A DNA stretch of 34,112 nucleotides from Zetaproteobacteria bacterium (GTDB taxonomy: Bacteria > Pseudomonadota > Zetaproteobacteria > Mariprofundales > Mariprofundaceae): positions 1 to 34,112 of the forward strand of contig QILF01000156.1 in NCBI GenBank assembly GCA_003233235.1, given 5' to 3'. The notes beneath the pieces are model-generated. The model did not search any database and had not been told where the DNA came from. It was given only the letters and a program-made list of their open reading frames with translations. Each line of letters starts with the position of its first letter. Position 1 is the stretch's first letter. The position numbers and the translations under genes were made by a program. Below, piece by piece: positions 736 to 21,204 of this stretch.

Positions 736-1986
736 ATGCAGCTTATTCACCCAGTTTTGTACGTTTCATTAATTCACAAAATGACAGAGCAAGCTAGTTG
801 GCAACTTATCTGCGATAGGTTTGAAAAGTTCGCAGAAAATAAAAAAATTATGTGTCTTAGCTTACCTGTTGAATCAATGAGCAGTGAAACTGATAAAGCT
901 GAACAAGTAGCTGAGTGGTGGCTTGCAGTTGAACAGCAATCAATTGAATTAGCTCTTGAGTACGAACATTTGTTTCATACAGATATTGCTGATTGCTACG
1001 GCTCAATTTATACGCACTCAATTTCTTGGGCATTACATACAAAAGAAGAAGCTAAGAAACCTGAAAATAAAAACAACTCAGGACTTGTTGGGGTTGTTAT
1101 AGATAAAACCATTCAAGATATGAGTTATGGGCAGACAAATGGTATTCCTCAAGGTTCTGTATTAAGCGACTTTATTGCAGAAATGGTGTTGGGGTATGCT
1201 GATTTATTATTGTCAGAAAGAATCGGTGATTCAATAACAGACTATCAGATATTGCGTTACAGGGATGACTACCGAGTATTTGTTAATAACCCCCAAGACG
1301 GCGAGAAAATCATTAAGCTCCTAACTGAAGTTATGATTGAACTTGGCATGAAATTGAACCCATCTAAAACCAGCTTTAGCAACCAAGTCATTAGCTCATC
1401 GATTAAACAAGACAAATTAAGCTGGCTATATAGGAAGCATTCTTCAAAGAGCTTGCAGCAACACCTTTTGATTATCCATAACCACGCAGAAGACTTTCCA
1501 AATTCAGGGAGTTTAACGAAGGCACTTTTGAGTTTTCATAAACGTCTCTTAAAACTGGAGAAAGCAATTGACTCGTTGATGGTTCTAATAAGCATCTCAA
1601 TAGATATTGCTTACCATAACCCAAAAACTTACCCTGTTATTTCTGCCATATTAAGTAAGCTTATTGTCTTGCTGGATGATGAAAGCTTGCAACTTGAAGT
1701 GATTGGGAAAATTCAAAAACGATTTAGTCAAATACCAAACACGGGGTATATGGATGTTTGGCTGCAAAGGTTTAGCTGGTTTATAAAGAAAGATATTGAG
1801 TATTCAGAGCCTTTGTGCCAATTGATTACTGCCTCTCCAATAGAGATATGGAATATGGACTGGATTTCATGCAAAGAGTTGAAAGATATTATGAATCCAT
1901 CAAAAATCATTGATAGCTCTATACTGACTGAGCTTACGCCAATAATTGATATTGAAGAGATAGAGCTATTCGAGGGGTATCATTGA
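736..1986 (+). CDS. Reverse transcriptase of the defence-associated (UG/Abi-like) type, N-terminally truncated by an IS
   Basis: RNA-directed DNA polymerase, 416 residues from the first Met. Palm motifs are visible: HTDIADCYGS (motif A, about 81-90, Asp83), TNGIPQGSVLS (motif B, about 134-144), YRDDYRVF (motif C, Asp177/Asp178) and LGMKLNPSKT (motif D/E, about 203-212). Residues from about 225 on are predicted helical with no named domain. There is no maturase or endonuclease domain, so it is not a group II intron RT. The YRDD box and solo architecture resemble the 'unknown group' RTs used in phage defence (DRT); I cannot assign the group. Codons 709-735, upstream of the Met, read EDGKYAWRP in frame and look like the RT's own N-terminal motif, so the IS removed the real start. 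GGAG four bases before 736 could allow translation from there. The next gene starts 33 bases on. Confidence 0.8.
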   Translation: MQLIHPVLYVSLIHKMTEQASWQLICDRFEKFAENKKIMCLSLPVESMSSETDKAEQVAEWWLAVEQQSIELALEYEHLFHTDIADCYGSIYTHSISWALHTKEEAKKPENKNNSGLVGVVIDKTIQDMSYGQTNGIPQGSVLSDFIAEMVLGYADLLLSERIGDSITDYQILRYRDDYRVFVNNPQDGEKIIKLLTEVMIELGMKLNPSKTSFSNQVISSSIKQDKLSWLYRKHSSKSLQQHLLIIHNHAEDFPNSGSLTKALLSFHKRLLKLEKAIDSLMVLISISIDIAYHNPKTYPVISAILSKLIVLLDDESLQLEVIGKIQKRFSQIPNTGYMDVWLQRFSWFIKKDIEYSEPLCQLITASPIEIWNMDWISCKELKDIMNPSKIIDSSILTELTPIIDIEEIELFEGYH

Positions 1987-2019
1987 AATGCCTCATTTAA
2001 CTAAAAAAGGAAATCTTTT

Positions 2020-2574
2020 ATGAAGCTACGTTTTCCAATGGCAGTCATCATCTTTCTTAGTGCTTACTCTCCATTAGCTATTATTTTTGCTATTCAGGAT
2101 TTTGATTTTGAAGCATATTCATGGGAACACCCTTATCTGGTCAGTTGGATTTTTGCGGCTTCACTTATTAGCTGCATCATTGTTTGGGCATCAGTTAAGC
2201 TACTTAAAACTTCATCCCCACCTGTAAAGGTTATTCAAGTATCGAATAGGTCTGGAGAACTTATTAACTACAGTATCCCATATATGATTTCATTTTTTGT
2301 TATGGATTTAGGTGATATAAATATGCTCGTTAGCTTTGCATTCTTCATGTGTATAATGTTTTGGATGACACTTAAAACACATAATATTTTCATAAATCCT
2401 GTTTTGGCGATGTTAGGTTACAACCTTTATGATGTTCGGTATGAGTTGAATAAGAAGGAGTATGAAAATTTCTTTCTCATAAAAGGTGAACGCCTATCAT
2501 CTGGAGAACAATGTCGAATTATTGAAATTTCTGAACAACTCTATTTGGTTGCAGATAGAAACCCTGAGGTATAA
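2020..2574 (+). CDS. kwaA: KwaA-like membrane protein of a Kiwa-type defence pair
   Basis: Integral membrane protein of 184 residues. Hydrophobic segments lie at about 6-25, 40-60, 82-97 and 100-133, followed by a soluble tail from about 137 to 184. I recognise no enzymatic motif. The assignment rests on size, membrane topology and the DUF4868/KwaB-like gene 2 bases downstream; Kiwa is a two-gene system of a four-helix inner-membrane protein (KwaA) and KwaB. In the published E. coli system KwaA senses infection at the envelope and works with KwaB in a membrane complex. AAGGA sits about nine bases before the ATG. It follows the RT with a 33-base gap, so RT, this gene and kwaB look like one transcript. 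It could be another small membrane partner of a DUF4868 protein. Confidence 0.6.
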   Translation: MKLRFPMAVIIFLSAYSPLAIIFAIQDFDFEAYSWEHPYLVSWIFAASLISCIIVWASVKLLKTSSPPVKVIQVSNRSGELINYSIPYMISFFVMDLGDINMLVSFAFFMCIMFWMTLKTHNIFINPVLAMLGYNLYDVRYELNKKEYENFFLIKGERLSSGEQCRIIEISEQLYLVADRNPEV

Positions 2575-2576
2575 TA

Positions 2577-3518
2577 ATGGATAAGCTGCAAAAGGCATTT
2601 AAAGACGTGAAGTCTCAGGCCTGGAGTAAAGCTACTGTTTCATTTTATGTGGTGAACAGAAGGCTTGAAAATAGAAAAGCTCATTACTCTGTGAAACAAG
2701 TGAACTCAGATACAGATTTAAGGAAAAAACTAAGAGATACAGCGACAAAGAAAATAAACTCTGCCAATGCTGCCCAAAAGTATGACTTCACCAGTGCTGA
2801 CTTAAATGATGATGTATTAGCAATTGAGCTTTCGATGACAGACTTTCAATTAATAATTGAACAAATCACTAGTGATGAAGAGCTTGTTTTTGCAGAGAGC
2901 TATGAGGAATTGGTTAAAACATGGTTTTATGTCATTAGGCTCGAACTACCTGATAAGCCACTATTGTATGTAGTAAGAAAAGTACCTGGAGGCGCTTGGT
3001 CTGCAAAGAAAGTAAAACAGCTTATTAATATGGTATTTCAAAACAATATGCTGGTCGATTTGAAGCAAGAAGAAATATTTAGGATTGATGGACATGTTGA
3101 TTTCTTTGCTTTTGAAGATTCCCTTTTTATTGCTGAGAAAAATAATTTTGAGGCTGCTTTAAATTTCCGAGTTGGTATGGAAAATAACAGGGATGAAATT
3201 GTCGCTGAATTTAAAAAGTTGAAATTGTTTGCAGACGCTGACGAAGTTGGAAAGTTGGTTGGGGATAATATGCGTTTATTGCGACGCTTATCTCAGGTCA
3301 AGAATGCTGGGTATTATAGTAATACTGAATATATGAAAAAACTGAAAGCTGTGTCAGCTAAAGAAAGTTGGGGGCTGGAGTACAACACAGATAATGAGTT
3401 AATAGTTTCGGAAGAAAATATTGAGCTCGTTTTAAGATTGCTAAACAATGGCCGTCTAACATCGAAGGTGAATGCAGAGAACTTTGATGTTGATGTGAAG
3501 CATAAGCTTGGTACATGA
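2577..3518 (+). CDS. kwaB: DUF4868 / KwaB-like defence protein
   Basis: Soluble protein of 313 residues that I recognise as DUF4868, the family of KwaB from the Kiwa anti-phage system. The charged N-terminal half (1-130) leads into a stretch with conserved hydrophobic strands such as TWFYVIRLEL and KPLLYVVRK (about 120-145). The segment EIFRIDGHVDFFAFEDSLFIAEKNNFEAA (about 162-190; key residues D167, F171, F173, N185, F186) is typical of the family. KwaB is described as the DNA-binding effector that acts with KwaA to block late phage replication and transcription. The start is fixed by GAGG inside the end of kwaA and a 2-base gap. The stop overlaps the next start (ATGA). Length matches known KwaB (about 315). 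Confidence 0.75.
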   Translation: MDKLQKAFKDVKSQAWSKATVSFYVVNRRLENRKAHYSVKQVNSDTDLRKKLRDTATKKINSANAAQKYDFTSADLNDDVLAIELSMTDFQLIIEQITSDEELVFAESYEELVKTWFYVIRLELPDKPLLYVVRKVPGGAWSAKKVKQLINMVFQNNMLVDLKQEEIFRIDGHVDFFAFEDSLFIAEKNNFEAALNFRVGMENNRDEIVAEFKKLKLFADADEVGKLVGDNMRLLRRLSQVKNAGYYSNTEYMKKLKAVSAKESWGLEYNTDNELIVSEENIELVLRLLNNGRLTSKVNAENFDVDVKHKLGT

Positions 3519-4039
3519 TGTTCTTACTAGCTGAACCCTCTTTTGCTCAAAAGAATATAAACTTGCCGTCAGTATTGTCCTTTGGCATGACACTGGATGA
3601 TTTCAAAGCTGGTGTAAGCAGTGTGCGTAATATTGTTATTTCACGAGTACTGCACGAATTGGGATTGATGGAGCAGTGGGGTAGTGGTTATCAGCGTATC
3701 TCAAATGCTTGCAGGGAAGAAGGTTATCCTGAACCTGAATGGCAAGAGCTTGCTTCATGTGTGCGGGTGGTTTTTCATCCGCATCCTGATGTTCCTACAA
3801 ATGTCGGTGCAAATGTCGGTGCAAATGTCGGTGCAAATGATGCTGATTGGAATGAACGACGACAATGGTTTGTTCAGCAATTGGTGGCAGGTCGCGATGT
3901 GAAGAGTGAGGCGTTGAAAGAGCATTGGGGAATCACTACCCGAACAGCTGAGCGAGATATTGCAGATCTGCGGCGAAAAGAGGTGATTGAATTTATTGGG
4001 GCAGCTAAAACAGGTCGTTATCAGTTGAGGGGCAAATAA
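3515..4039 (+). CDS. C-terminal remnant of a RecG-like/AlbA-type ATP-binding transcriptional regulator
   Basis: 174 residues, much shorter than the family (about 450-500). From about residue 22 it matches the end of the 'ATP-dependent DNA helicase RecG-like' regulators: GMTLDDFKAGVSSVRN, then ELGLMEQWGSGYQRI (the C-terminal end of the HATPase_c_4 region), then a flexible linker with three VGAN repeats and a winged-helix domain (about 125-174, EHWGITTRTAERDIADLRR). The N-terminal AlbA_2 and most of the ATPase region are gone. The first 20 residues (MMFLLAEPSFAQKN...) look like novel sequence created at the join with the RT/Kiwa cassette. Such regulators often sit in type I restriction operons next to fic, as here. 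The frame is still open and coupled to kwaB (ATGA) and to the fic stub (TAATG). It is probably non-functional. Confidence 0.7.
   Translation: MMFLLAEPSFAQKNINLPSVLSFGMTLDDFKAGVSSVRNIVISRVLHELGLMEQWGSGYQRISNACREEGYPEPEWQELASCVRVVFHPHPDVPTNVGANVGANVGANDADWNERRQWFVQQLVAGRDVKSEALKEHWGITTRTAERDIADLRRKEVIEFIGAAKTGRYQLRGK
3800..3835 (+). repeat. Three tandem 12-bp units coding for a VGAN linker
   Basis: AATGTCGGTGCA occurs three times in a row, with the start of a fourth copy. It encodes NVGANVGANVGAN between the ATPase remnant and the winged helix. In-frame repeats of this kind are common in linkers of this regulator family and can change number by slippage without breaking the frame. Confidence 0.85.
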
Positions 4040-4125
4040 TGACCTACCAACCTCCCTTCACCATCACCACCGAAATCATTGATTTAATCAGTGTGGTAAG
4101 TGAGCAAGTCGGTTTTGTGCAGCGA
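4039..4125 (+). pseudogene. 5' stub of a fic gene (first copy)
   Basis: The first 29 codons of a Fic-family protein (MTYQPPFTITTEIIDLISVV...) are cut off where the Abi_2 module begins. The reading frame runs on to 4260, but only as filler. The stub repeats the start of the fic copy at 5153: the two 87-bp segments differ at seven positions and share a perfect 50-bp block (4072-4121 against 5186-5235). The start overlaps the stop of the preceding regulator (TAATG), the usual gene junction in such operons. Confidence 0.8.
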
Positions 4126-4172
4126 TATGTGTGTTCTGCAATATTTCACTTCTCAACAGGTGGTTTCTGGTT

Positions 4173-4240
4173 TATACTTCGGGTCAAGAAAACCCGTCAA
4201 AGGCCATGCGCGAAAGTGTATCCTTGGCGGGTTGCTTTGT
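4173..4240 (+). ncRNA. Candidate abiF-type structured RNA upstream of Abi_2
   Basis: A long hairpin lies just before the Abi_2 gene. AACCCG (4191-4196) pairs with CGGGTT (4228-4233). TCAA and GG (4197-4203, one A bulged) pair with CCTTGG (4222-4227). ATGCGC (4206-4211) pairs with GTGTAT (4216-4221) around a GAAA loop (4212-4215), with CC bulged on one side. That is 18 pairs, three of them G-U in the upper stem and lower joint. TATACT (4173-4178) is placed to start an RNA near 4185, just ahead of the stem; I see no good -35. Conserved RNAs (the abiF motif) are known upstream of Abi_2/AbiF genes and act as antitoxin-like partners. Assignment to that motif is inference from position and structure. 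Confidence 0.5.
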
Positions 4241-4256
4241 TTCAGGGGGCGGCTTT

Positions 4257-5156
4257 ATGAAGCACCCTTTTTCTAAAATGCCGACAACCCACCAGCAACA
4301 AGTGGAACTTCTTCAGCAACGCGGCATGGAAATCAACGATGTCCAATCTGCCCAATTCTATCTTCGACATCTCAATTACTATCGCCTTGCCGCTTATTGG
4401 CTTCCTTTTGAAGCAGATCATAAAAGTCACGCATTCAAAACTGGCACTTCTTTTGAGCAAGTGCTCAACCTATATGTGTTTGACCGCGAACTCCGCTTGC
4501 TTGTGCTGGATGCGGTGGAACGAATCGAAGTGTCTGTGCGCGCCCGTTGGGCTTATGAGTTTGCACATAAACATGGTCATCATGCGCACCTTAACCCTTC
4601 TTTTGCACGCAATCACCACCATTGGGAAAAAAACCGCAGTCAGCTAAAGAACGAGGTGGATAGAGCGGATGAAACTTTTATTCGCCATTTGTGCCGAGAA
4701 TATTCAGATGAGCTGCCGCCGCTTTGGGCTGTATGTGAAGTGATGTCGCTGGGTTTGCTATCGCGTTGGTATCAAAACATGAAACCTTTGGGAACGCGCA
4801 CAGCGATTGCAAAGACATATGGCGTGAATGAAAGAACGCTCCAGTCATGGCTACACCATTTATCAACGGTTCGAAATATTTGTGCACATCATTCAAGATT
4901 ATGGAATAGAGAGTTCACTGTCCTTCCCATGATACCTGACCCAGTACCCAAGCGGTTACAGGGGCAATTCATAAGTGAATCAAGGAAAAACTACAATTCA
5001 TTAACGATTATGTTGCACTTTATGAATATTATCGCGCCAGACCACCATTGGAGAGCTAGGCTGATAAGCTTGATAGATTCGCATCATATCCAAACTGCTG
5101 CAATGGGTTTTCCAAACGATTGGAAAACTCGGCGTATTTGGCAGGGCAAACAATGA
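4257..5156 (+). CDS. Abi_2 family (AbiD/AbiF-like) abortive-infection protein
   Basis: 299 residues from the Met at 4257. An upstream in-frame start at 4131 would read through the RNA hairpin and is less likely. The N-terminus KHPFSKMPTTHQQQVELL is the family's usual opening, followed by FYLRHLNYYRLAAYW (about 35-50) and YVFDRELRLLVLDAVERIEVS (about 72-92; key R77, L80, R88). The motif RNICAHHSRLWNR (about 206-218) contains R-x4-H, the HEPN ribonuclease signature. Members are toxic RNA-cleaving effectors that stop growth upon phage infection; some are kept in check by an upstream RNA, and Cas13 is proposed to descend from them. Its stop overlaps the next fic start (ATGA). The gene with its RNA sits between two copies of the fic 5' end. 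Confidence 0.85.
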   Translation: MKHPFSKMPTTHQQQVELLQQRGMEINDVQSAQFYLRHLNYYRLAAYWLPFEADHKSHAFKTGTSFEQVLNLYVFDRELRLLVLDAVERIEVSVRARWAYEFAHKHGHHAHLNPSFARNHHHWEKNRSQLKNEVDRADETFIRHLCREYSDELPPLWAVCEVMSLGLLSRWYQNMKPLGTRTAIAKTYGVNERTLQSWLHHLSTVRNICAHHSRLWNREFTVLPMIPDPVPKRLQGQFISESRKNYNSLTIMLHFMNIIAPDHHWRARLISLIDSHHIQTAAMGFPNDWKTRRIWQGKQ

Positions 5157-5493
5157 CCTATCACCCACCCTTCACTATCACCACAGAAATCATTGATTTA
5201 ATCAGTGTGGTAAGTGAGCAAGTCGGTTTTGTGCAACGGGACTTTCTTGATGCTTCGCCGCAGCTTCGCAAAGAAAACCGTATCAAAACGATTACAGGCA
5301 CATTGCAAATTGAAGGCAGTACACTCACGGAAGAGCAGGTGTCTGCCGTGCTGGATGGAAAACCTGATTGGCATCGGTGCGTGAGTTGGCAGAGGTGAAA
5401 GGTGCGATTGCGGCTTATGATAGGCTGAACGAACTCAATCCATACAAGCTGGATGATTTGCTGGAAGCGCATCGTTTGATGATGGGCGATGTG

Positions 5494-5523
5494 CCTGCCT
5501 GTGCGTGGTCGCACGCAGACAGG
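5494..5523. repeat. Small palindromic repeat inserted in fic (copy 1)
   Basis: CCTGCCTGTGCGTG and CACGCAGACAGG form an imperfect inverted repeat around GTCG. It interrupts the fic coding sequence between MMGDV and the AGSFRDKPVG segment. The same outer arms recur at 5982-6007. Confidence 0.65.
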
Positions 5524-5677
5524 TTGAAACAAGCAGGTTCATTCCGTGATAAACCTGTGGGGGTGTATAATGGGTAAAGAAGTGGTGCATGTTGCGCCAC
5601 CTGCACACAAAATATCAGGACTGATGGCGGAGCTATTGGCTTGGGCGAAACAATCCGATGCACACCCTTTGATTTTG

Positions 5678-5839
5678 GGGAGGGGTTAATCAACTCATGA
5701 ACTCGCATTTTTTATCCACAATGCGCCAACCCTGCGTTGCAACATTTCGCAATAGCCGTGCTATTACGCGCATGTTGCGCCTTGATTTAGCACATTCTGA
5801 ATTGCAACCTGCTTCGCACAGAGTTAATCAACACCTCCC
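5678..5839 (-). mobile_element. 162-bp MITE with IS5-like terminal inverted repeats, inserted in fic
   Basis: The ends are imperfect inverted repeats: GGGAGGGGTTAATCAACTC on the left against GGGAGGTGTTGATTAACTC on the right (read inward). The interior, read on the minus strand, closely matches bases 12,696-12,829, with shared blocks such as TAAATCAAGGCGCAA/CAAATCAAGGCGCAA and AGCACGGCTATTGCGAAA. It has no transposase gene. It splits fic between DAHPLI and SSVFHYEF. The right flank is CTAG-like, which suits the YTAR target of IS5 elements; the left flank is degenerate. It is probably mobilised by a related full-length IS elsewhere in the genome. Confidence 0.75.
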
Positions 5840-5981
5840 TAGCAGTGTGTTTCATTATGAGTTTGAATTTATTCATCCGTTTATTGATGGCAATGGGCGT
5901 ATGGGCAGTGCTGATGCAGCAGCCGATAGCACGGTGTTTATCACCTTTATGCTTAAATTCATTTTACAGACATTAGAAAAC

Positions 5982-6007
5982 GCCTGCCTGTGCCTTGGCA
6001 GACAGGC
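5982..6007. repeat. Small palindromic repeat inserted in fic (copy 2)
   Basis: GCCTGCCTGTGCC TT GGCAGACAGGC is an imperfect palindrome with the same arms as the repeat at 5494. It lies in the coding sequence for the linker between the Fic core and the winged helix, where intact relatives have NAPV-type repeats; one NAPVN survives just after it. Confidence 0.65.
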
Positions 6008-6229
6008 CTCTGTAAACGCCCTTCAAAACGCCCCTGTAAACATTGAAGGCATGCAAACACCCGATGCCATCATTGCTCTGGTTCAAGCGGATCGCTCAAT
6101 CACACGCAGCCAAATGGCAGGGCAGATTGGCAAAGATATTCGCACCATTGGTCGAGCTATTAAAAAGCTGCAAGATGAAGGGAAGCTACAACGCATTGGA
6201 TCGGATAAAGCCGCGCATTGGGAGTTATT

Positions 6230-7228
6230 ATGATAGAAAACAAACAATCCAATTTTCTTTTATACAAAGGCAGCAATGGAAACATCAATATAGATGTTTT
6301 GCTGGAAAATGAAACGGTGTGGTTATCACAACAACAAATATCTGAATTATTCCAGAAAGAGCGCAGCGTGATTACCAAGCATATCAACAATGTGTTCAAA
6401 GAAGGGGAGTTGGAAGAGCAAAGCAATGTGCAATTATTGCACATTGCTCAATCAGACAAACCTGTGAAATTCTATAATCTTGATGTCATTATATCTGTGG
6501 GCTATCGCGTAAAATCACAACAAGGCACACGATTCAGACAGTGGGCAACAGCCCAACTTAAAGAGTTTATCATTAAAGGTTTTGTGATGGATGATGAACG
6601 ACTGAAAAATCCTAAGCAGCCTTTTGGTACGGACTATTTTGATGAGCAATTAGAGCGTATTCGTGATATTCGCAGTAGTGAACGGCGGCTTTATCAAAAA
6701 ATTACGGATATTTATGCACAATGTAGTATTGATTATGATGTAAATAGTGAGGTGACCCAAACATTTTTTGCGACTGCTCAAAACAAGCTGCATTGGTCTA
6801 TTGTTGGAGAAACTGCGGCGGAAATTATTCATCATCGTGTGGATAGTGAAAAACCAAATATGGGACTTACCAGTTGGAAAAATGCTCCAACGGGGCGTAT
6901 TCGCAAGCATGATGTTGGTATTGCGAAAAACTATCTATCAGAAAAAGAGCTTAACTTTTTCAATCGCATTGTGACGATGTATCTGGATTATGCCGAGATG
7001 CAAGCACTCAATAAACGGGTGATGACGATGCAGGATTGGGTCGTGAAATTGGATGCTTTTTTAACATTTAATGAAAAGGATGTTTTACAGCATCAAGGCA
7101 AGGTATCCCATGATATTGCAGTGGCTCTGGCTCATCAGGAGTATGAAAAGTACAGGGTAATGGAAGATGCAAAATATATTTCTGATTTTGATAGGGTGGT
7201 TGCCAAGTTAGAGGGTAAGCATGAGTGA
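6230..7228 (+). CDS. RhuM family protein (virulence RhuM / DNA-binding)
   Basis: 332 residues from the Met at 6230, whose ATG overlaps the fic stop (ATGA). The N-terminal part has the family's pattern TVWLSQQQISELFQKERSVITKHINNVF (key W26, Q30, L33, F34, R38; about 25-52), which looks like a helix-turn-helix. FYNLDVIISVGYRVKS follows (about 82-97), then RQWATAQLKEFIIKGF (about 104-119). The C-terminal half is helical. The biochemical role of RhuM proteins is not established. They are frequent passengers in type I restriction operons together with fic and RecG-like genes, between hsdS and hsdR. The end overlaps hsdR by 8 bases, so the two are translationally coupled. No damage is visible. Confidence 0.85.
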   Translation: MIENKQSNFLLYKGSNGNINIDVLLENETVWLSQQQISELFQKERSVITKHINNVFKEGELEEQSNVQLLHIAQSDKPVKFYNLDVIISVGYRVKSQQGTRFRQWATAQLKEFIIKGFVMDDERLKNPKQPFGTDYFDEQLERIRDIRSSERRLYQKITDIYAQCSIDYDVNSEVTQTFFATAQNKLHWSIVGETAAEIIHHRVDSEKPNMGLTSWKNAPTGRIRKHDVGIAKNYLSEKELNFFNRIVTMYLDYAEMQALNKRVMTMQDWVVKLDAFLTFNEKDVLQHQGKVSHDIAVALAHQEYEKYRVMEDAKYISDFDRVVAKLEGKHE

Positions 7229-10200
7229 CTTAACCGAAGATGCCATTGAGCAAAACTTAATCGACCTGCTGCAAAAGCAGGGATATGTGTATTTCAATGA
7301 TGCAGACATCAACCCGACAAGCGATAACCCACAACGGGATGCCTTTGATAGCGTGGTATTAGAAAAACAATTTCAAGCTTGTTTGCAAAAGCTCAACCCT
7401 GAAATTCCTGAACCTGCCCTGCATGAAGCATTTCAGCATGTGCTACACCTTGGCACAAATGACATCATGACCAACAATGAGAAGTTCCACCAAATGCTTT
7501 GTGATGGTGTGACCGTTGAGCATTTTCAGGATGGGCAATCGGTTGGGTTGCAGGTGAAACTGGTTGATTTTGAGAACTTTGGAAATAATGAGCTTTGGGC
7601 AGTGAATCAGTTTGTGATTAAAGAGAATAACCAGTCCAAACGATTGGATGTAATCCTGTTTGTGAATGGTCTTCCCTTGGTGGTAATTGAGCTTAAAAGT
7701 GCCATTAGTGAAAAGGCGACACTGGAAAGAGCATATACGCAGATTCAGAACTATAAGGCTGCCATACCTTCAATCTTTAACTATAACGCGCTGTGCATCA
7801 TATCCGATGGCATAGATGCACGGGTAAGCTCTGTCTCTGCGCCATTTTCACGATATTTGGCATGGAAAAGCCCGAACAAGGAAGATAATAATGTTATTCC
7901 CGAACTGGAGGTTATGGCGAAGCAGATGCTCAAGTCTGATGTGTTATTAAAACTTGTTCGTTTTAATACTGTGTTTGAATCGGAAGAGGTGAAAGACGAA
8001 AAGACGGGTCTACTATCGTTGATTAAAATCAAAAAAGTGGCTGCTTATCATCAATATTACGTGGTTGAGAAAGCTGTTCAGTCCACTTTGCGAGCGATGA
8101 AACGTTCGGAGCATGAAGTGCAGGAAGACCCTGCTTCCTATGGTTTGAAATCTGTGCAAAGCCAACCTGTGGGCGACCGTAAAATTGGTGTGGTTTGGCA
8201 TACTCAAGGTAGTGGCAAATCGCTCTCGATGGTGTTTTATGCAGGGCAGTTGGTGGTTGAACCTGCCATGAAAAACCCAACGATTGTGATTCTTACAGAC
8301 AGGAATGATTTGGATGACCAACTCTTTGGCACATTTGGCAACTGCGTATCACTTCTAAGACAAACGCCTGTACAGGCAAATAATCGAAACCATCTAAAAG
8401 AGCTTTTGACCGTCAGTGGTGGTGGCATTGTGTTTACGACTATTCAGAAGTTTTACCCTGAAAATGGCAGTGACAGTTATGATGCACTTTCAGACCGAAC
8501 CAATATTGTTGTTGTGGCCGATGAAGCACACCGCAGCCAATATGGGTTTACAGGCAAGGTGGATGAGCAAGGCAATATTAAATACGGCAATGCCAAACAT
8601 TTAAGGGATGCACTTCCGCATGCTTCATTCATTGGCTTTACAGGCACACCGATTGAGAAAGAAGACAGGGATACGCAGCAGGTCTTTGGTGAATACATCG
8701 ATGTGTATGATATTGCTCAGGCTGTGAAAGACGGGGCGACTGTGCCATTGAGCTATGAAAGCCGATTGGTGAAAATTAAATTCAATGAGGGAATCAACAA
8801 AAAGGTTGATAAACTGGTGGAAGGTATTGAAGGCGCAACCGATGAGCAGCTTGAAAAGTCCAAAAAGAAGAATGCACAAATCAATGCCGTTGTGGGGCAT
8901 CCTGACCGACTCAAAGATATTGCCAGAGATATAGTCACTCACTTTGAAGCGAGGCAGGAAGTGTTTGAAGGCAAGGGCATGATTGTCTGCATGACTCGCC
9001 AGATTGCCGTTGATTTATATACTCAGATTATCGAACTGAAACCTGAATGGAATGAAGACGCTCTGGATAAGGGTGCAATCAAGGTTGTGATGACCAGCTC
9101 ATCGGATGACCCTGCAAGTTTCCAGCCTCACCACACCAACAAGAAAGACCGTAAAGCTTTGGCTATCAGGCTTAAGGATGCGCATGACTCATTAAAACTG
9201 GTGATTGTACAATCCATGTGGCTGACAGGCTTTGATGCTCCACCACTGCACACAATGTATATTGATAAGAAGATGCAAGGTGCAGCCTTGATGCAGGCCA
9301 TCGCAAGGGTGAATCGGGTGTATAAAGATAAGCCTGGTGGCTTGATTGTGGACTATATCGGCATTGGGCAAGACTTACGCTCTGCTATGCAGATGTACGT
9401 TGAGAGCGGGGGGCAAGGCGAAGTAGCTCCTGATATTAAAGAAGTCATTGCTGGCATGCTGGCTAAGTTTGAAATTGTGCAGCAGATGTTCCACCCGTCT
9501 GCTGTGGATGCACGGGCAGGTGGCTTTGATTATCAGGCTTATTTCAAGGCAGAGACTAGCGAGAAGCTGAAGCTCTTGCTCGCTGCTCAGAACTTTATTT
9601 TAAATGATGAAGAACTGAAAGACCGTTTCATGGCTGAAGTGATAGCATTATCTAAACTCTACGTGATGGCAGTGCCGAGTTATGAATCTGAGAAAATAAA
9701 AGATGATGTGGCTTTCTTTCAGGCAATCAATTCACGAATCAACAAGTTCACCCCATCTGGTGGCAAAACAGATACTCAAGTTGATTCAGCTATTAAGCAG
9801 ATTGTGGATGATGCTTTAGCCAGTGATGGCGTGGTTGATATTTTTGAGGCGGCTGGGGTTAAAGCTCCGTCACTGGATATTTTATCTGAAGAGTTCCTGC
9901 TTGAAGTCAAAAATATGGAGCATAAGAACCTTGCTTTCGAGTTGCTTCGCAAGTTGCTCAATGAGGAAGTGAAAGTCAGAAAGCAGAAGAATATGACTCA
10001 GGGTAAGAAGTTCTCTGAAATGCTTTCCAATGTGATTAAGCGTTATCACAACAATCAAATTGATACGGCTCAGGTGATTCAGGAATTGTCTGAAATCGCA
10101 AGAGATATGAAGCTGGAAGACAGCAAAGCCCACGAATTGGGTTTAACACCTGAGGAGTATGCCTTCTACTCTATCCTTGCCCAAAATGACTCCACTTCAT

Positions 10201-10427
10201 TCTTGGAAGACCACAAGATGAAAGAGCTGATTCATCGCATCGTGGAAATCATTCGCAAGAATGCGACGGTAGATTGGAACAGGCGTGATGACGTAAAAGC
10301 CAAGCTTCGCCTTTTGGTGAAAAAGGTGCTGATGCGTTATGGCTATCCGCCTGATTTAGCGAAGATAGAGGCAGACCGTGTGTTGGAGCAGAGTGACTTG
10401 TTGGCAAGTGAATTTTCTTCAGTCTGA
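7221..10427 (+). CDS. hsdR: Type I restriction enzyme, R subunit (HsdR)
   Basis: The motor and nuclease subunit of a type I restriction-modification complex, 1068 residues and full length. Nuclease domain: RLDVILFVNGLPLVVIELK, with Asp143 and E157-x-K159 of the PD-(D/E)xK core. Motor: HTQGSGKS (Walker A, 327-334), DEAH (434-437), FIGFTGTPIEKED (motif III) and TGFDAPPLHTMYIDK with ALMQAIARVNRVY (motifs V and VI). The C-terminal part matches the DUF3387-type helical region that docks on the methylase. It needs HsdM and HsdS to bind and modify DNA; neither is in the window. They may lie left of the IS or be lost. The start is fixed by an 8-base overlap with rhuM. No frameshift is visible, so the gene may still be functional. 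Confidence 0.95.
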   Translation: MSDLTEDAIEQNLIDLLQKQGYVYFNDADINPTSDNPQRDAFDSVVLEKQFQACLQKLNPEIPEPALHEAFQHVLHLGTNDIMTNNEKFHQMLCDGVTVEHFQDGQSVGLQVKLVDFENFGNNELWAVNQFVIKENNQSKRLDVILFVNGLPLVVIELKSAISEKATLERAYTQIQNYKAAIPSIFNYNALCIISDGIDARVSSVSAPFSRYLAWKSPNKEDNNVIPELEVMAKQMLKSDVLLKLVRFNTVFESEEVKDEKTGLLSLIKIKKVAAYHQYYVVEKAVQSTLRAMKRSEHEVQEDPASYGLKSVQSQPVGDRKIGVVWHTQGSGKSLSMVFYAGQLVVEPAMKNPTIVILTDRNDLDDQLFGTFGNCVSLLRQTPVQANNRNHLKELLTVSGGGIVFTTIQKFYPENGSDSYDALSDRTNIVVVADEAHRSQYGFTGKVDEQGNIKYGNAKHLRDALPHASFIGFTGTPIEKEDRDTQQVFGEYIDVYDIAQAVKDGATVPLSYESRLVKIKFNEGINKKVDKLVEGIEGATDEQLEKSKKKNAQINAVVGHPDRLKDIARDIVTHFEARQEVFEGKGMIVCMTRQIAVDLYTQIIELKPEWNEDALDKGAIKVVMTSSSDDPASFQPHHTNKKDRKALAIRLKDAHDSLKLVIVQSMWLTGFDAPPLHTMYIDKKMQGAALMQAIARVNRVYKDKPGGLIVDYIGIGQDLRSAMQMYVESGGQGEVAPDIKEVIAGMLAKFEIVQQMFHPSAVDARAGGFDYQAYFKAETSEKLKLLLAAQNFILNDEELKDRFMAEVIALSKLYVMAVPSYESEKIKDDVAFFQAINSRINKFTPSGGKTDTQVDSAIKQIVDDALASDGVVDIFEAAGVKAPSLDILSEEFLLEVKNMEHKNLAFELLRKLLNEEVKVRKQKNMTQGKKFSEMLSNVIKRYHNNQIDTAQVIQELSEIARDMKLEDSKAHELGLTPEEYAFYSILAQNDSTSFLEDHKMKELIHRIVEIIRKNATVDWNRRDDVKAKLRLLVKKVLMRYGYPPDLAKIEADRVLEQSDLLASEFSSV

Positions 10428-10818: not shown

Positions 10819-11379
10819 GTGATTCCCGACTGGTACAACGACATTGAAGCTTGGTTCGCCAGCCATCGTATTGTGGCCACAGCACCCGTTGCAGTGCTGC
10901 TGATTGTGCTTGCCGATCCTACACCGCTACTGCTAACCATCGGCGGCGCGATGGTGGTACTTGGCGAAGCCGGACGCATGTGGTCGAGCGGGCATATCGA
11001 CAAAAATCAGCAATTGGCGACTGCCGGACCTTATGCACATACGCGCAACCCGCTGTATGTGGCAAACTTATTACTACTCACCGGTTTCTGCGTGATGTCC
11101 GGTCATGCATGGCTCACCGCCCTCGCCCTGCTCGCTTTTGCGATGATTTATCGCCCGGTGATTCGCGAAGAAGCGCAGCATATGGATAAATTATTCGGCG
11201 ATGACTACCGCAAATGGTCTATCGACGTGCCGCTATTTTTTCCACGTTTAACACCTGCAAAAAATGCCGTCGGTTCATTCTCGTGGCCGCTGGTAATCCA
11301 GCATCGCGAACACAAAAATGCCGCCGCATTCCTGCTTGGTATTGTCATCTTCTGCGCCATTTATTTCTGGAGACACTGA
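10819..11379 (+). CDS. Isoprenylcysteine carboxyl methyltransferase-family (ICMT/PEMT-like) membrane methyltransferase
   Basis: About 186 residues. Hydrophobic helices lie at the start (VATAPVAVLLIVLADPTPLLLTIGGAMVV), in the middle and at the C-terminus (AAFLLGIVIFCAIYF). The family signature is clear: GPYAHTRNPLYVANLLLLTGF, the SAM-binding loop of the ICMT/PEMT fold, and REEAQHMDKLFGDDYRKW near the end. The substrate is unknown in bacteria; a lipid or envelope component is likely given the glycosyltransferase next door. I chose GTG at 10819 because GGAGG lies 4 bases upstream; ATG at 10795 or 10714 are alternatives in the same frame. The stop is 13 bases before the GT9 start, so the two are probably one operon. 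Confidence 0.75.
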   Translation: MIPDWYNDIEAWFASHRIVATAPVAVLLIVLADPTPLLLTIGGAMVVLGEAGRMWSSGHIDKNQQLATAGPYAHTRNPLYVANLLLLTGFCVMSGHAWLTALALLAFAMIYRPVIREEAQHMDKLFGDDYRKWSIDVPLFFPRLTPAKNAVGSFSWPLVIQHREHKNAAAFLLGIVIFCAIYFWRH

Positions 11380-11392
11380 CATCCGCGCCCTG

Positions 11393-12499
11393 ATGGTTGT
11401 CTGCCGGTATCTCGGTGATGTTTTATTGGCGACACCGCTGGCCCAATCGCTCAGCGAAGCCGGTTACAGCATAGATTGGCTGGTTGCTCCCGGAACCGAG
11501 AGCATCCTTGAAAATCAACCGTATGCGCAGCAGGTTTTTGTCGTCGATCAATCAACCCCGTGGCATCGGCAACTGGCCCTGTCCATTCGATTTTTCCGGA
11601 AATACGATAAAGCTTTCGCCCTGCCCTCCACGGATCGTGCCATGTTTTTCGCTTTGTCCGCATCCGCATCAACGCATGCACTGATTGCGGCTGATCGATC
11701 GCAGGATGCATGGAAACGACGCATGGCACGCACGTGGCTTGATTATATTCCCGGCAAACACATGGTCAGTCTTGCTTGCAAACTGGCCGAAACCGCTGCA
11801 CTGCCTGCATGTAGAAATGTGAAAATAACATGGTCGGAAGAAGATGCGCAGCAGGTTTTTTCGCTTCTCCCGTGGGACAAAGAAACGCCTTACATCCATA
11901 TCCATCCGTTTGCCCGCTGGCCGTACAAGTGGTGGCGTAGCGGAGAATGGAAAACGCTCATCGGACGGGCAGAAAAGAACGGGCTGCGCGTGGTCATTAC
12001 CGGCTCTCCGGCTGAAATAAATCAGGCAACGGTACTTGCGAAAAATTTCGCCGAAAACGCTGTTTGCATACTGGCCGGACAATTAAACTGGCGTCAACTG
12101 GCCTGTCTTTCACATACTGCACAGGCTTATATCGGCATGGACACCGCCAATACTCATCTGGCGGCGAGCACGGACACACCGGTTATCGCACTTTTCGGGC
12201 CAACCGATCCGCGCATCTGGGGTCCGTGGCCAAATGGTTTTAACGGCTTAACACCGTGGCAGGCATCCTCCGACGACGGCATTCAGCGGCAGGGTAATAT
12301 TTCGCTGTTACAGGGACAGCAGGATTGCGTTCCCTGCCAACTGGAAGGCTGCGAACACCGCCCGGATTCGGTCAGTTTATGCCTGAAAGAAATGCAAGCC
12401 GAATGGGTATGGCAGGAGGTCGAATTCCGGCTCCAGCATCGTTCGGTGGATATGAAAGCTGAAAGAAAAAAGCAAACCAGCCAAGGAGGTGCTGATTAA
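11393..12499 (+). CDS. Glycosyltransferase family 9 (heptosyltransferase-like)
   Basis: 368 residues, LPS-core type. The N-terminus MVVCRYLGDVLLATPLAQSL is the GT9 opening (usual form RLGD-LL-TP), and the C-terminal domain has IGMDTANTHLAASTDTPVIALFGPTDPR, the donor-site signature (Asp, His and the FGPTDP loop). Such enzymes add heptose from ADP-heptose to lipid A-core at the cytoplasmic face. The Met at 11393 leaves only one to five residues before the RYLGD motif; no good Shine-Dalgarno is visible, and RAL just before it reads well, so the true start could be a little upstream. The last codons (about QGGAD) and the stop lie inside the left end of the MITE at 12484, so the original C-terminus was replaced. 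Confidence 0.85.
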   Translation: MVVCRYLGDVLLATPLAQSLSEAGYSIDWLVAPGTESILENQPYAQQVFVVDQSTPWHRQLALSIRFFRKYDKAFALPSTDRAMFFALSASASTHALIAADRSQDAWKRRMARTWLDYIPGKHMVSLACKLAETAALPACRNVKITWSEEDAQQVFSLLPWDKETPYIHIHPFARWPYKWWRSGEWKTLIGRAEKNGLRVVITGSPAEINQATVLAKNFAENAVCILAGQLNWRQLACLSHTAQAYIGMDTANTHLAASTDTPVIALFGPTDPRIWGPWPNGFNGLTPWQASSDDGIQRQGNISLLQGQQDCVPCQLEGCEHRPDSVSLCLKEMQAEWVWQEVEFRLQHRSVDMKAERKKQTSQGGAD

Positions 12500-12514
12500 T
12501 TCTGGGTAAAGCAG

Positions 12515-12693
12515 AGCCACTTGCAAAAGTCCGGGTGGATGAGTTGCAATCCCACTTCGAGTGCGATTTTGAGTTGGAATGAGGTGAATGGTGGTTCCAT
12601 TTGGTGAATGGTGGTTCCATTTGCCGAAATTACAACTCAAAATCACGCCGCAGTGGGGAAGCAAATCGCCGCTCACGACTTTTGCAAGTGGCT
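12515..12693. repeat. Fold-back insert nested in the MITE
   Basis: AGCCACTTGCAAAAGTC (12,515-12,531) is the exact reverse complement of 12,677-12,693. An inner pair, GATTTTGAGTTG at about 12,564-12,575 and CAACTCAAAATC, is also exact. Between them the arms match only in part. The loop holds the 20-bp tandem duplication. AGCAG flanks the insert on both sides (12,510-12,514 and 12,695-12,699), as expected for a short target duplication. Confidence 0.75.
12583..12622. repeat. Two tandem copies of a 20-bp unit
   Basis: GGTGAATGGTGGTTCCATTT occurs twice without a gap in the loop of the fold-back insert. The copies are identical, which suggests a recent duplication. Confidence 0.95.
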
Positions 12694-12836
12694 CAGCAGA
12701 TTGCATTCAAGAATGTGCCAAATCAAGGCGCAATGTGCGCGTCACAGCACGGCTATTGCGAAAGGTTGCAACGCCGAGTTGGTGCATGATGAATGCAACA
12801 GCGAATTCATGAATTGATCAGCGCATCCCTAAGCAT

Positions 12837-13994
12837 TCAGCTCTTGCCAAGACGATGCGCAATCCAATGCATCAACTGCTGATGAATAACATAAAACATC
12901 TCGCCACTCTGCACCAGCCACTTTGGCAAAGCTCCCTGCTCGGCACGTCGCCACAGCAGTAATCCGAATATCAGAAAAGCCATCTGCCCGGCCCACATCG
13001 ACCATGCCGGAAACGACCCCAGACTCACTTGCCGGTGCAGCACCAGTTGCACGTTGTAGAGCAGAATCAGCAATCCGATACCGTAAAGAAAAGAACCCGT
13101 CCGACCCGAACGTTTGGGAGCCAGCGACAACGGCAACGCAAAAACACATAAAATCAGCACCGTGGTCGGCAAAATAAGTCGCCTGTTCCACTCGGCAACG
13201 GCATCGGGCGCGTGAAGCTGCTGAATCTTCTCCCACAACTGCGCCGGTGACATCATAATCACATGGTCCATTGAGCGTGACAGTCTAGCGGCCCCCAAAG
13301 GGCCAAAAGGAATATCCACATCGTAATTGGTAAAAGCCAGCATGCGCTGATTATCACCTTCACCTTCAAGGCGCGTTCCCTGATGCAAACGCAAGCGTAT
13401 TCCGCCTCTGCCCGGTGTCAATTCTGCCGTCTCGGCCAGATAAAAAACCGGCCCGCCCGGACGCCCGTCCTCCAGCATCACGCCGTGATAAAGCCCGTCA
13501 TCATCTTTCCCGTTGACATAAAAAGTAATGTTTTCAACGTCACGCGAAAACCGTTGCGGAGTGAACTCGGGAGAACCTTTAAGGTTGTAGAGCTGGCTCA
13601 ATACGTTATTAAATGCCAATTGTCCCTGTGGCAGGATATACATTGAGGTGTAAAACAGTGCCGCATACAATACAATCGCCATCACAATCACTGCCCGGCA
13701 AATGCGTGTATAAGACATTCCCGCCGAGCGCATCACGTCAATTTCACTACCCTGCTGCAACGCAGTAATCACATTCTGCATCGACAGGAAAAAAGCAATA
13801 GGTACAGTCAGCAGAATAAAATACGGTAACACAAACAGCATCAGTTCACCCAGCAAACCCCACGGCGCACCCGCATCAGTAATCAGCGACAGCAATTTCA
13901 GCGCGCGACCGAAAAGTAATACGCCCGTCGCCAGAATCAGCCCGGCGGCAAAGGGAACCAGCCACAATCTCAGCACATAACGATCCAATATCAT
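12837..13994 (-). CDS. lptF: LptF/LptG family LPS export permease (YjgP/YjgQ)
   Basis: 385 residues from the ATG at 13994; a TTG three codons upstream (14003) is an alternative. Layout is that of LptF/G: three N-terminal membrane helices (about 10-30, 50-75, 97-118), a periplasmic beta-jellyroll (about 130-265) and three C-terminal helices (about 270-365). LptF and LptG form the membrane part of the LptB2FG ABC transporter that lifts LPS from the inner membrane to the Lpt bridge. The opening MILDRYVLRLWLVPFAAGL and the segment QQGSEIDVMRSAGMS (the coupling helix that meets LptB) support it. Only one member is present here; whether it is F or G needs comparison. Last gene of the leftward operon, 43 bases after nagZ. 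Confidence 0.85.
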   Translation of the reverse strand: MILDRYVLRLWLVPFAAGLILATGVLLFGRALKLLSLITDAGAPWGLLGELMLFVLPYFILLTVPIAFFLSMQNVITALQQGSEIDVMRSAGMSYTRICRAVIVMAIVLYAALFYTSMYILPQGQLAFNNVLSQLYNLKGSPEFTPQRFSRDVENITFYVNGKDDDGLYHGVMLEDGRPGGPVFYLAETAELTPGRGGIRLRLHQGTRLEGEGDNQRMLAFTNYDVDIPFGPLGAARLSRSMDHVIMMSPAQLWEKIQQLHAPDAVAEWNRRLILPTTVLILCVFALPLSLAPKRSGRTGSFLYGIGLLILLYNVQLVLHRQVSLGSFPAWSMWAGQMAFLIFGLLLWRRAEQGALPKWLVQSGEMFYVIHQQLMHWIAHRLGKS

Positions 13995-14037
13995 GCCGCA
14001 CAACCTAGCATTTCACGCCACCCGGATGCACAAACCA

Positions 14038-20222: not shown

Positions 20223-21150
20223 GGCACTCGCTCCGGCCAAAATCAACCTGCACCTGCGCATTACCGGCATCACGACGAACGGTTATCATCTGCTCGACAC
20301 CAGTTTCGCCTATACCGATGCCTGCGATGTCTTGCATATTGAAGCTGCGGAATATCTCGACATCACTTGCTCCGATTCGTCACTAAATGGCGAAAAGAAT
20401 CTGGTTTACCGCGTGCTTGATGCACTGCGTTGTAAATACCGGGTGAATCAGGGGCTGCATGTGCATATTGAAAAGCATATCCCATCGCAAGCGGGTCTTG
20501 GTGGCGGCTCATCCGATGCGGCGACAGCGTTGATTGCAGCCAATCACCTGTGGAAACTTAAACTTAGCAGCAACGAACTCATTACCTTTGCCGCTCCATT
20601 TGGTGCTGATATTCCCTGTTTTCTATTCGGCCAGCCAAGCCTCGCCAGAGGGATCGGTGAACAACTTGAGCCGCTCAATCCAACACCTGAAATCCACCAT
20701 ATCGTTCTCGCGCATCCCGGCATTGGCCTGTCCACCGCTGAAGTTTTCCGCCGGTTCGATGCTAAATCCGATGCTGATTTTGGACCGAAAACAGGAATGC
20801 GCAGCAGCCAATTGACCCCTTCGGAGGCGAAAGCTACCATCCGCGCCGGTTTGACGGGGGGCACGTTGCCAACAGGTGAAAATACACTGGAAGCCGTGTC
20901 CTGCGAGATGTCTGCTGAGCTTGTCGCTTTGCTTTCCGGCATGCGGCAAACGCATCCAAAAAGTTGGATGAGCGGTAGTGGAACGGCTTGTGTTTCACGT
21001 TGCGAAAACGCCGCAGATGCCGTTCGGCTTGCCGACAGGCTTGTCACAGAAGGCATTGCCGCATGGAGTCATGCAGGCAGTCTGCAATCCCGTCATCCCT
21101 TGTATGGCAGCGGCATGGAACCGCTAGACTGGGGCGTAGCCAAGCGGTAA
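20215..21150 (+). CDS. ispE: 4-diphosphocytidyl-2-C-methyl-D-erythritol kinase
   Basis: Fourth step of the MEP isoprenoid pathway: ATP-dependent phosphorylation of CDP-ME. 311 residues from 20215; a Met seven codons earlier lies inside lolB and is not needed. Opening APAKINLHLRITG with the catalytic Lys9, GHMP-kinase ATP loop PSQAGLGGGSSDAATAL (about 89-105), catalytic Asp in FGADIPCFL, and MSGSGTACVSRC near the C-terminus. Longer than E. coli IspE (283). The last seven codons run into the tRNA-Gln gene: the stop is at 21148-21150, in the D-loop region of the tRNA. No earlier stop exists, so the overlap is real for this frame. Confidence 0.93.
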   Translation: MIKALAPAKINLHLRITGITTNGYHLLDTSFAYTDACDVLHIEAAEYLDITCSDSSLNGEKNLVYRVLDALRCKYRVNQGLHVHIEKHIPSQAGLGGGSSDAATALIAANHLWKLKLSSNELITFAAPFGADIPCFLFGQPSLARGIGEQLEPLNPTPEIHHIVLAHPGIGLSTAEVFRRFDAKSDADFGPKTGMRSSQLTPSEAKATIRAGLTGGTLPTGENTLEAVSCEMSAELVALLSGMRQTHPKSWMSGSGTACVSRCENAADAVRLADRLVTEGIAAWSHAGSLQSRHPLYGSGMEPLDWGVAKR

Positions 21151-21204
21151 GGCAACGGGTTTTGATCCCGTCATGCGCAGGTTCGAATCCTGCCGCCCCA
21201 ACCA
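21130..21204 (+). tRNA. tRNA-Gln (anticodon TTG)
   Basis: 75 bases with encoded CCA. Acceptor TGGGGCG pairs with CGCCCCA, with discriminator A at 21201. The anticodon arm ACGGG-TTTTGAT-CCCGT gives anticodon TTG. The T-arm is GCAGG-TTCGAAT-CCTGC. It is encoded between ispE and prs, as in Pseudomonas. Its first 21 bases overlap the ispE coding sequence. Confidence 0.98.

Follow-up and report, generated by a model that had tools for sequence, protein, structure and literature searches.

A foldback MITE nested within a putative IS5-type MITE in a Zetaproteobacteria genome, and the hairpin of its family

Two miniature elements at one site

That one MITE has inserted into another is ordinary and not surprising, and by itself it yields the order of insertion only. 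The locus described here bears on a wider question: transposition should require no more than the ends of a bacterial MITE, yet long hairpins are kept. The window, which is the whole stretch of 34,112 nucleotides analysed, corresponds to contig C18 in a draft genome that comprises 157 contigs and 2.02 Mb. A preliminary description had placed a split MITE at 12484–12829, and this interval was nearly exact: the outer element occupies 12485–12828 on the forward strand. Its terminal inverted repeats (GGAGGTGCTGATTAATT / GGATGCGCTGATCAATT) are 17 bp long and imperfect, and without the insert and one AGCA it measures 159 bp, with other copies of the outer MITE ranging from 149 to 165 bp. The flanking CCAA (12481–12484) and CTAA (12829–12832), as read from the sequence, match at three of four bases and constitute an imperfect target duplication. 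YTAR is the target duplication of IS5, and several of the other outer copies have YTAR-like duplications, those seen being CTAG, TTAG, TTTA and CTAA, with CTAG/CCAA around the copy in the fic gene. No transposase with the ends of the outer element was found.

The outer element is located between a heptosyltransferase-like ORF with a Glyco_transf_9 domain match (11318–12499) and a convergent ORF (12837–14003), and its left end contributes the stop codon of the former (12497–12499). An uninterrupted outer copy, identified by reading the sequence and comparing outer copies, lies on the reverse strand at 5679–5838 and breaks the fic gene (5120–6233), the start region of which has a 95-bp near-repeat at 4030–4124. 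A defence island extends over 736–10427, where PADLOC models matched an AbiP2-type RT, KwaA/KwaB (Kiwa), AbiD, PDC-S05 and a type I restriction subunit; the RT is matched from profile position 83 and lies beside a cut-off IS4-like transposase. A tRNA at 21130–21201 is the sole Rfam match.

The insert that splits the outer element, put at about 180 bases beforehand, is 181 bp long (12514–12694, forward strand) and is flanked by AGCA on the left (12510–12513) and on the right (12695–12698), both read from the sequence. Its inverted ends are exact, as had been claimed, but they measure 18 bp and not 17, the left repeat GAGCCACTTGCAAAAGTC running from 12514 to 12531 and the right, its exact inverse on the reverse strand, from 12677 to 12694. 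The flanking repeat had been given as AGCAG, of which AGCA is the duplication; the additional G belongs to the inner element on the left-hand side and to the target on the right-hand side. The two identical 20-bp units reported in the loop (GGTGAATGGTGGTTCCATTT) are indeed present, in tandem at the tip of the hairpin (12583–12602 and 12603–12622, forward strand). The element scores 164.5 bits against R1, a covariance model built from 26 copies of the inner family. It had no match in the plasmid collection, and an Rfam 15 search of 12400–12900 gave no match up to E = 1.

It had been proposed that a second, unrelated miniature element used the first as its target, and the inner and outer elements do differ both in their ends and in their type of duplication, which is NNNN between a C and a G for the inner family and YTAR-like for the outer. 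Thirteen other outer copies, including that in fic, were read across the site (the further outer matches on C71, C17 and C77 stand outside this count), and all 13 are uninterrupted there; the alternative raised at the outset, that every other outer copy would carry the inner part and the shorter copy in fic would be a deletion, therefore does not hold. At L015 we found the exact empty junction, AAAGCAGATTGCATT, that is left by removing the insert and one AGCA. Nesting and empty sites are thus shown, and they support insertion of the inner element into a pre-existing outer MITE. Two other inner copies (L008 and L093) are inserted at the edge of an outer-type end. One could still suppose that the uninterrupted outer copies are deletions from a longer ancestor that always held the inner part, and an exact loss of the inner element leaving one AGCA is possible in principle. 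Such a history is extremely improbable, however, as it would demand precise excision 13 times over, none of the 13 copies inspected has the inner element, and the inner element is found at many other sites, amid unrelated sequence and with 4-bp duplications.

We consider it highly probable that two unrelated MITEs inserted successively and that the inner one was moved in trans, most likely by an IS5/IS1182-like transposase. An IS5-type MITE would have inserted behind the heptosyltransferase-like gene, with its left end now providing the last codons and stop of that gene; a foldback MITE of the second family, in its usual form of 161 bp, would then have inserted at AGCA via a transposase acting in trans; and the inner copy would have gained its 20-bp tip duplication by slippage, after insertion or just before, with the slippage probably arising at the hairpin. 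Of the 50 copies tabulated from this genome, 6 have a tip duplication (10, 11, 12, 13, 19 or 20 bp); the window copy has the longest, and 5 of the other 49 have shorter ones. The 20-bp duplication is thus unique among the 50, and it may be as fresh as the preliminary description had called it.

The inner family and its candidate mobiliser

When the genome was searched for the inverted end, the inner element proved to belong to a separate, dispersed family of high copy number. With at most two mismatches allowed, we counted 134 + 119 instances of the 18-mer end in the 2.02 Mb and 0 + 0 of its reversed control, which excludes chance and indicates about 125 copies. The 16-mer end has 134 + 124 occurrences against 2 + 3, and exact 16-mer pairs number 30 at the spacing of the long form and 11 at that of the short form. 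Perfect 4-bp duplications surround 36 of the 49 unique copies with both flanks (with shuffled flanks, 1.6 on average and at most 9), and the base before the duplication is C, and the base after it G, in 30 of 49 each. The copies are up to 186 bp long and usually 161 bp, with smaller ones of 89 bp and 61–63 bp and collapsed forms of 20–43 bp, and some of the shortest are still flanked by perfect duplications. By its ends, duplication, size, copy number and matching IS, the inner family is a MITE family: it is short (161 bp as the norm), without a transposase gene or conserved reading frame, and has exact 18-bp terminal inverted repeats, a fixed 4-bp duplication and many dispersed copies, while the complete IS with matching ends was found in a relative (G082) and not detected in this genome.

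The family was also followed in relatives, namely Zetaproteobacteria, Mariprofundus sp. and Mariprofundaceae MAGs, the latter two of which we take to belong to the Zetaproteobacteria. With strict filters and a limited number of candidates scored per genome, R1 matched 15 of the 78 genomes of the class, leaving 63 with no match, and the same 15 were matched when 299 genomes of the phylum were searched in this manner. Copy number is highly uneven, from 2 to at least 37 per matched genome, and the three genomes of the same genus gave no R1 match. The end is present in five viral contigs, yet none of these five loci matches R1.

Some inner copies themselves contain or adjoin other sequences. A 29-base palindromic motif of the fic region (5495–5523) also lies within two inner copies of another genus (L173 and L176, G065), from which it seems that a further small palindrome inserts into inner-MITE elements. 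The loops of L150 and L156 (G074) are split by another element with the end CGACATTCCGCACCC, around which L150 has an apparent duplication, ATACACC. Two inner copies at different sites in G007 (L042 and L051) share nearly identical extra loop bases, about 69 in number, suggesting that the composite moved as one. In our own genome, the inner copy L113 (C16:22028–22133), truncated where the contig ends, lies within the relic of an IS4-like transposase and continues the frame of that relic for about 22 codons. L111 (C95, about 1013–1180), also in our own genome, is a further miniature element of IS5 type with CTAG on both flanks; adjoining it, at the edge of the contig, is an ORF for an IS5-like transposase.

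In the relatives G082 and G083 the ends occur at many contig edges and continue into an insertion sequence. A complete IS of 1458 bp with a 379-aa transposase and the right end GAGCCACTTGCAAAAGTC is found on contig C126 of G082. The transposase has the Pfam domains DUF772 and DDE_Tnp_1, and scores 103.7 bits against the NCBIfam IS1182 equivalog NF033551 (cut-off 270), the best among the models listed, and 62 bits against a cut-off of 140 for the IS5 model NF033581; being below all of the listed cut-offs, it is termed IS1182-like and not a member. For most copies listed, the MITE ends equal the right end of this IS over 20–22 bp (E ~1e-4 to 2e-7), while sequence comparison of the MITE interior with the IS gave nothing significant. 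Of 74 family genomes, 11 have matches to this transposase. Most are fragments, the full-length ones being that of G082, that of G083, which contains one stop, and four copies in G074; none was detected in this genome. G074 carries both IS and MITE, the ends of its IS differing at 4 of 18 positions. A 4-bp duplication, TATG, accompanies the related IS in G074, and a 377-bp derivative in G094 has the duplication AATA; the sole full copy in G082 has the flanks GTAT/ATAT, with three of four bases matching. G082 and G083, which have the IS with the exact ends, gave no MITE match with R1, which speaks against IS and MITE forming a simple donor-client pair within one cell. Judging from the shared 18-bp ends, the IS5/IS1182-like element that is complete in G082 is the likely mobiliser of the inner MITE.

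Two other candidates were rejected as partner. PF13546 loci, examined for IS701, were matched in 8 of 74 genomes, and 0 of the 30 fetched carry the end within three mismatches. Among the four DDE_Tnp_1 matches of our own genome, none is a full copy flanked by the inner end, and one, on C16, is the IS4-like relic entered by the inner MITE.

The hairpin and its strand

The whole 161-bp inner element forms a single long hairpin, and compensatory changes have kept this fold across species. The window element folds as RNA at -102.4 kcal/mol (z -11.6, with 0 of 200 shuffles as good) and has a z of -9.7 when folded as DNA. An alignment of 26 sequences has 60 pairs, with compensatory change in 24. Pairing cells make up 97.1% versus 90.4% in shuffles and double-change cells number 108 versus 26.7, counts that overstate the number of independent events because the cells, like those of the strand comparison, are related by descent; pairing falls to 39–47% when the partners are slid by 1–3 columns.

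The two strands are not alike in this respect. In 45 copies, the arms of which were aligned by Watson-Crick rules only and the cells of which are related by descent, G-T mismatches numbered 360 versus 42 for A-C, with G-T in excess in 12 of 12 genomes. The majority is G-U in 7 of 60 pairs and A-C in none, and within the Watson-Crick-majority pairs, at the genome level, there are 47 G-U versus 14 A-C. The consensus fold is -74.8 versus -44.9 kcal/mol on the other strand, and the mean single-copy energy -95.1 versus -72.5 kcal/mol, one of the 26 copies (G074_L151) having its strand energies the other way round. Some G-T excess is also found in the outer family (54 versus 19 A-C, 8 copies). Among sibling copies within genomes, changes from Watson-Crick to G-U numbered 71 versus 48 to A-C (p = 0.04, on non-independent cells), and in G039 the bias was reversed, at 2 versus 6. 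Relative to tandem neighbour genes, 18 inner copies have the same and 24 the opposite orientation, which is no bias. Together, the weak sibling bias and the lack of orientation bias lead us to place any constraint on the spreading form and not on resident copies.

As the hairpin is kept mainly in the form folded by one strand, we infer, with much less confidence than we have in the nesting account, that selection acts on the propagating inner element as folded RNA or single-stranded DNA. The fuller proposal, which we put forward tentatively and which may well be wrong, casts the inner family as a structured mobile element, of RNA or of single-stranded DNA, whose spread needs the 161-base hairpin of one strand, with G-U tolerated and A-C weeded out in spreading lineages, while landed copies decay freely. 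It is quite possible, if short of probable, that the family is instead a plain MITE in which neither strand nor structure serves a function; its long hairpin would then be a mere relic of a palindromic origin, tidied as repair switched templates from one arm to the other. Compensatory pairs can arise through template switching, and the near-symmetric decay within genomes and the unbiased orientation to neighbouring genes agree with such a relic; however, arm-to-arm repair would yield Watson-Crick pairs and both strands alike, which is at odds with the majority G-U pairs, with the absence of majority A-C pairs and with the G-U excess within Watson-Crick-majority pairs.

Near-symmetric decay and random orientation also tell against resident copies serving the host as RNA processing or termination sites of neighbouring genes, in the manner of ERIC or Correia elements, as do the 63 class genomes with no match; we regard this role as unlikely, although the strong RNA fold of the window element speaks for it, as does the finding that 93 of 95 classified copies do not interrupt a joined ORF of more than 150 aa. 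Scarcely any credence can be given to the idea that the left arm, which reads EPLAKVWVDELQSHFE..., is coding, as the tail or start of a transposase. In those own-genome copies that were translated, its frame stays open over about 22 codons, and in C16 it continues from the broken IS4-like transposase, but stop codons rule out a coding role, with an early TGA in the JAUZQI copies, the G033 copies and one of the two G007 copies aligned, and the complete partner IS is without the left-arm sequence. With variants from 15 genomes of one class, compensatory changes, a strand bias and a candidate mobiliser, the question of why the hairpin is kept, and with it our proposal of selection on a folded spreading form, is directly testable.

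Comparison with known elements

Our literature searches, for the terms used and in the collection searched, returned nothing on MITEs or insertion sequences of Zetaproteobacteria or Mariprofundus. Among known elements RUP, ERIC, Correia and BrickBuilt show partial parallels in how they work, as far as the available portions of the sources describe them. The Nezha MITE of cyanobacteria was assigned to an IS (an ISNpu3-like partner) by similarity to it, according to the part of the account available (PMC3049150), and the inner MITE is likewise tied to an IS by sequence similarity, though in another phylum and with another IS, the likeness being one of description and not of sequence. In the excerpted account of BrickBuilt, a MITE of Porphyromonas gingivalis (PMC4596501), a tandem repeat of 23-nt units stands within the element; the inner family shares tandem units inside a MITE, but as an occasional duplication of 10–20 bp in 6 of 50 copies and not as a standing array. 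ERIC and Correia/NEMIS are, on the portion available of PMC2229807, foldback MITEs of about 107–155 bp whose transcripts form long stem-loops, with orientation-dependent mRNA effects reported for ERIC. The inner family is a foldback MITE as well, set apart by description and not by sequence comparison, with other ends and hosts and no orientation bias. RUP of Streptococcus pneumoniae, as outlined in the same portion (PMC2229807), has about 100 copies of 107 bp with ends matching a complete IS (IS630-Spn1), and its mobilisation in trans has been proposed. Unlike RUP, with its TA target and IS630 partner, the inner family has a 4-bp duplication and an IS5/IS1182-like partner not found in the same genome, but like RUP it combines some 125 copies with ends that match those of a complete IS.
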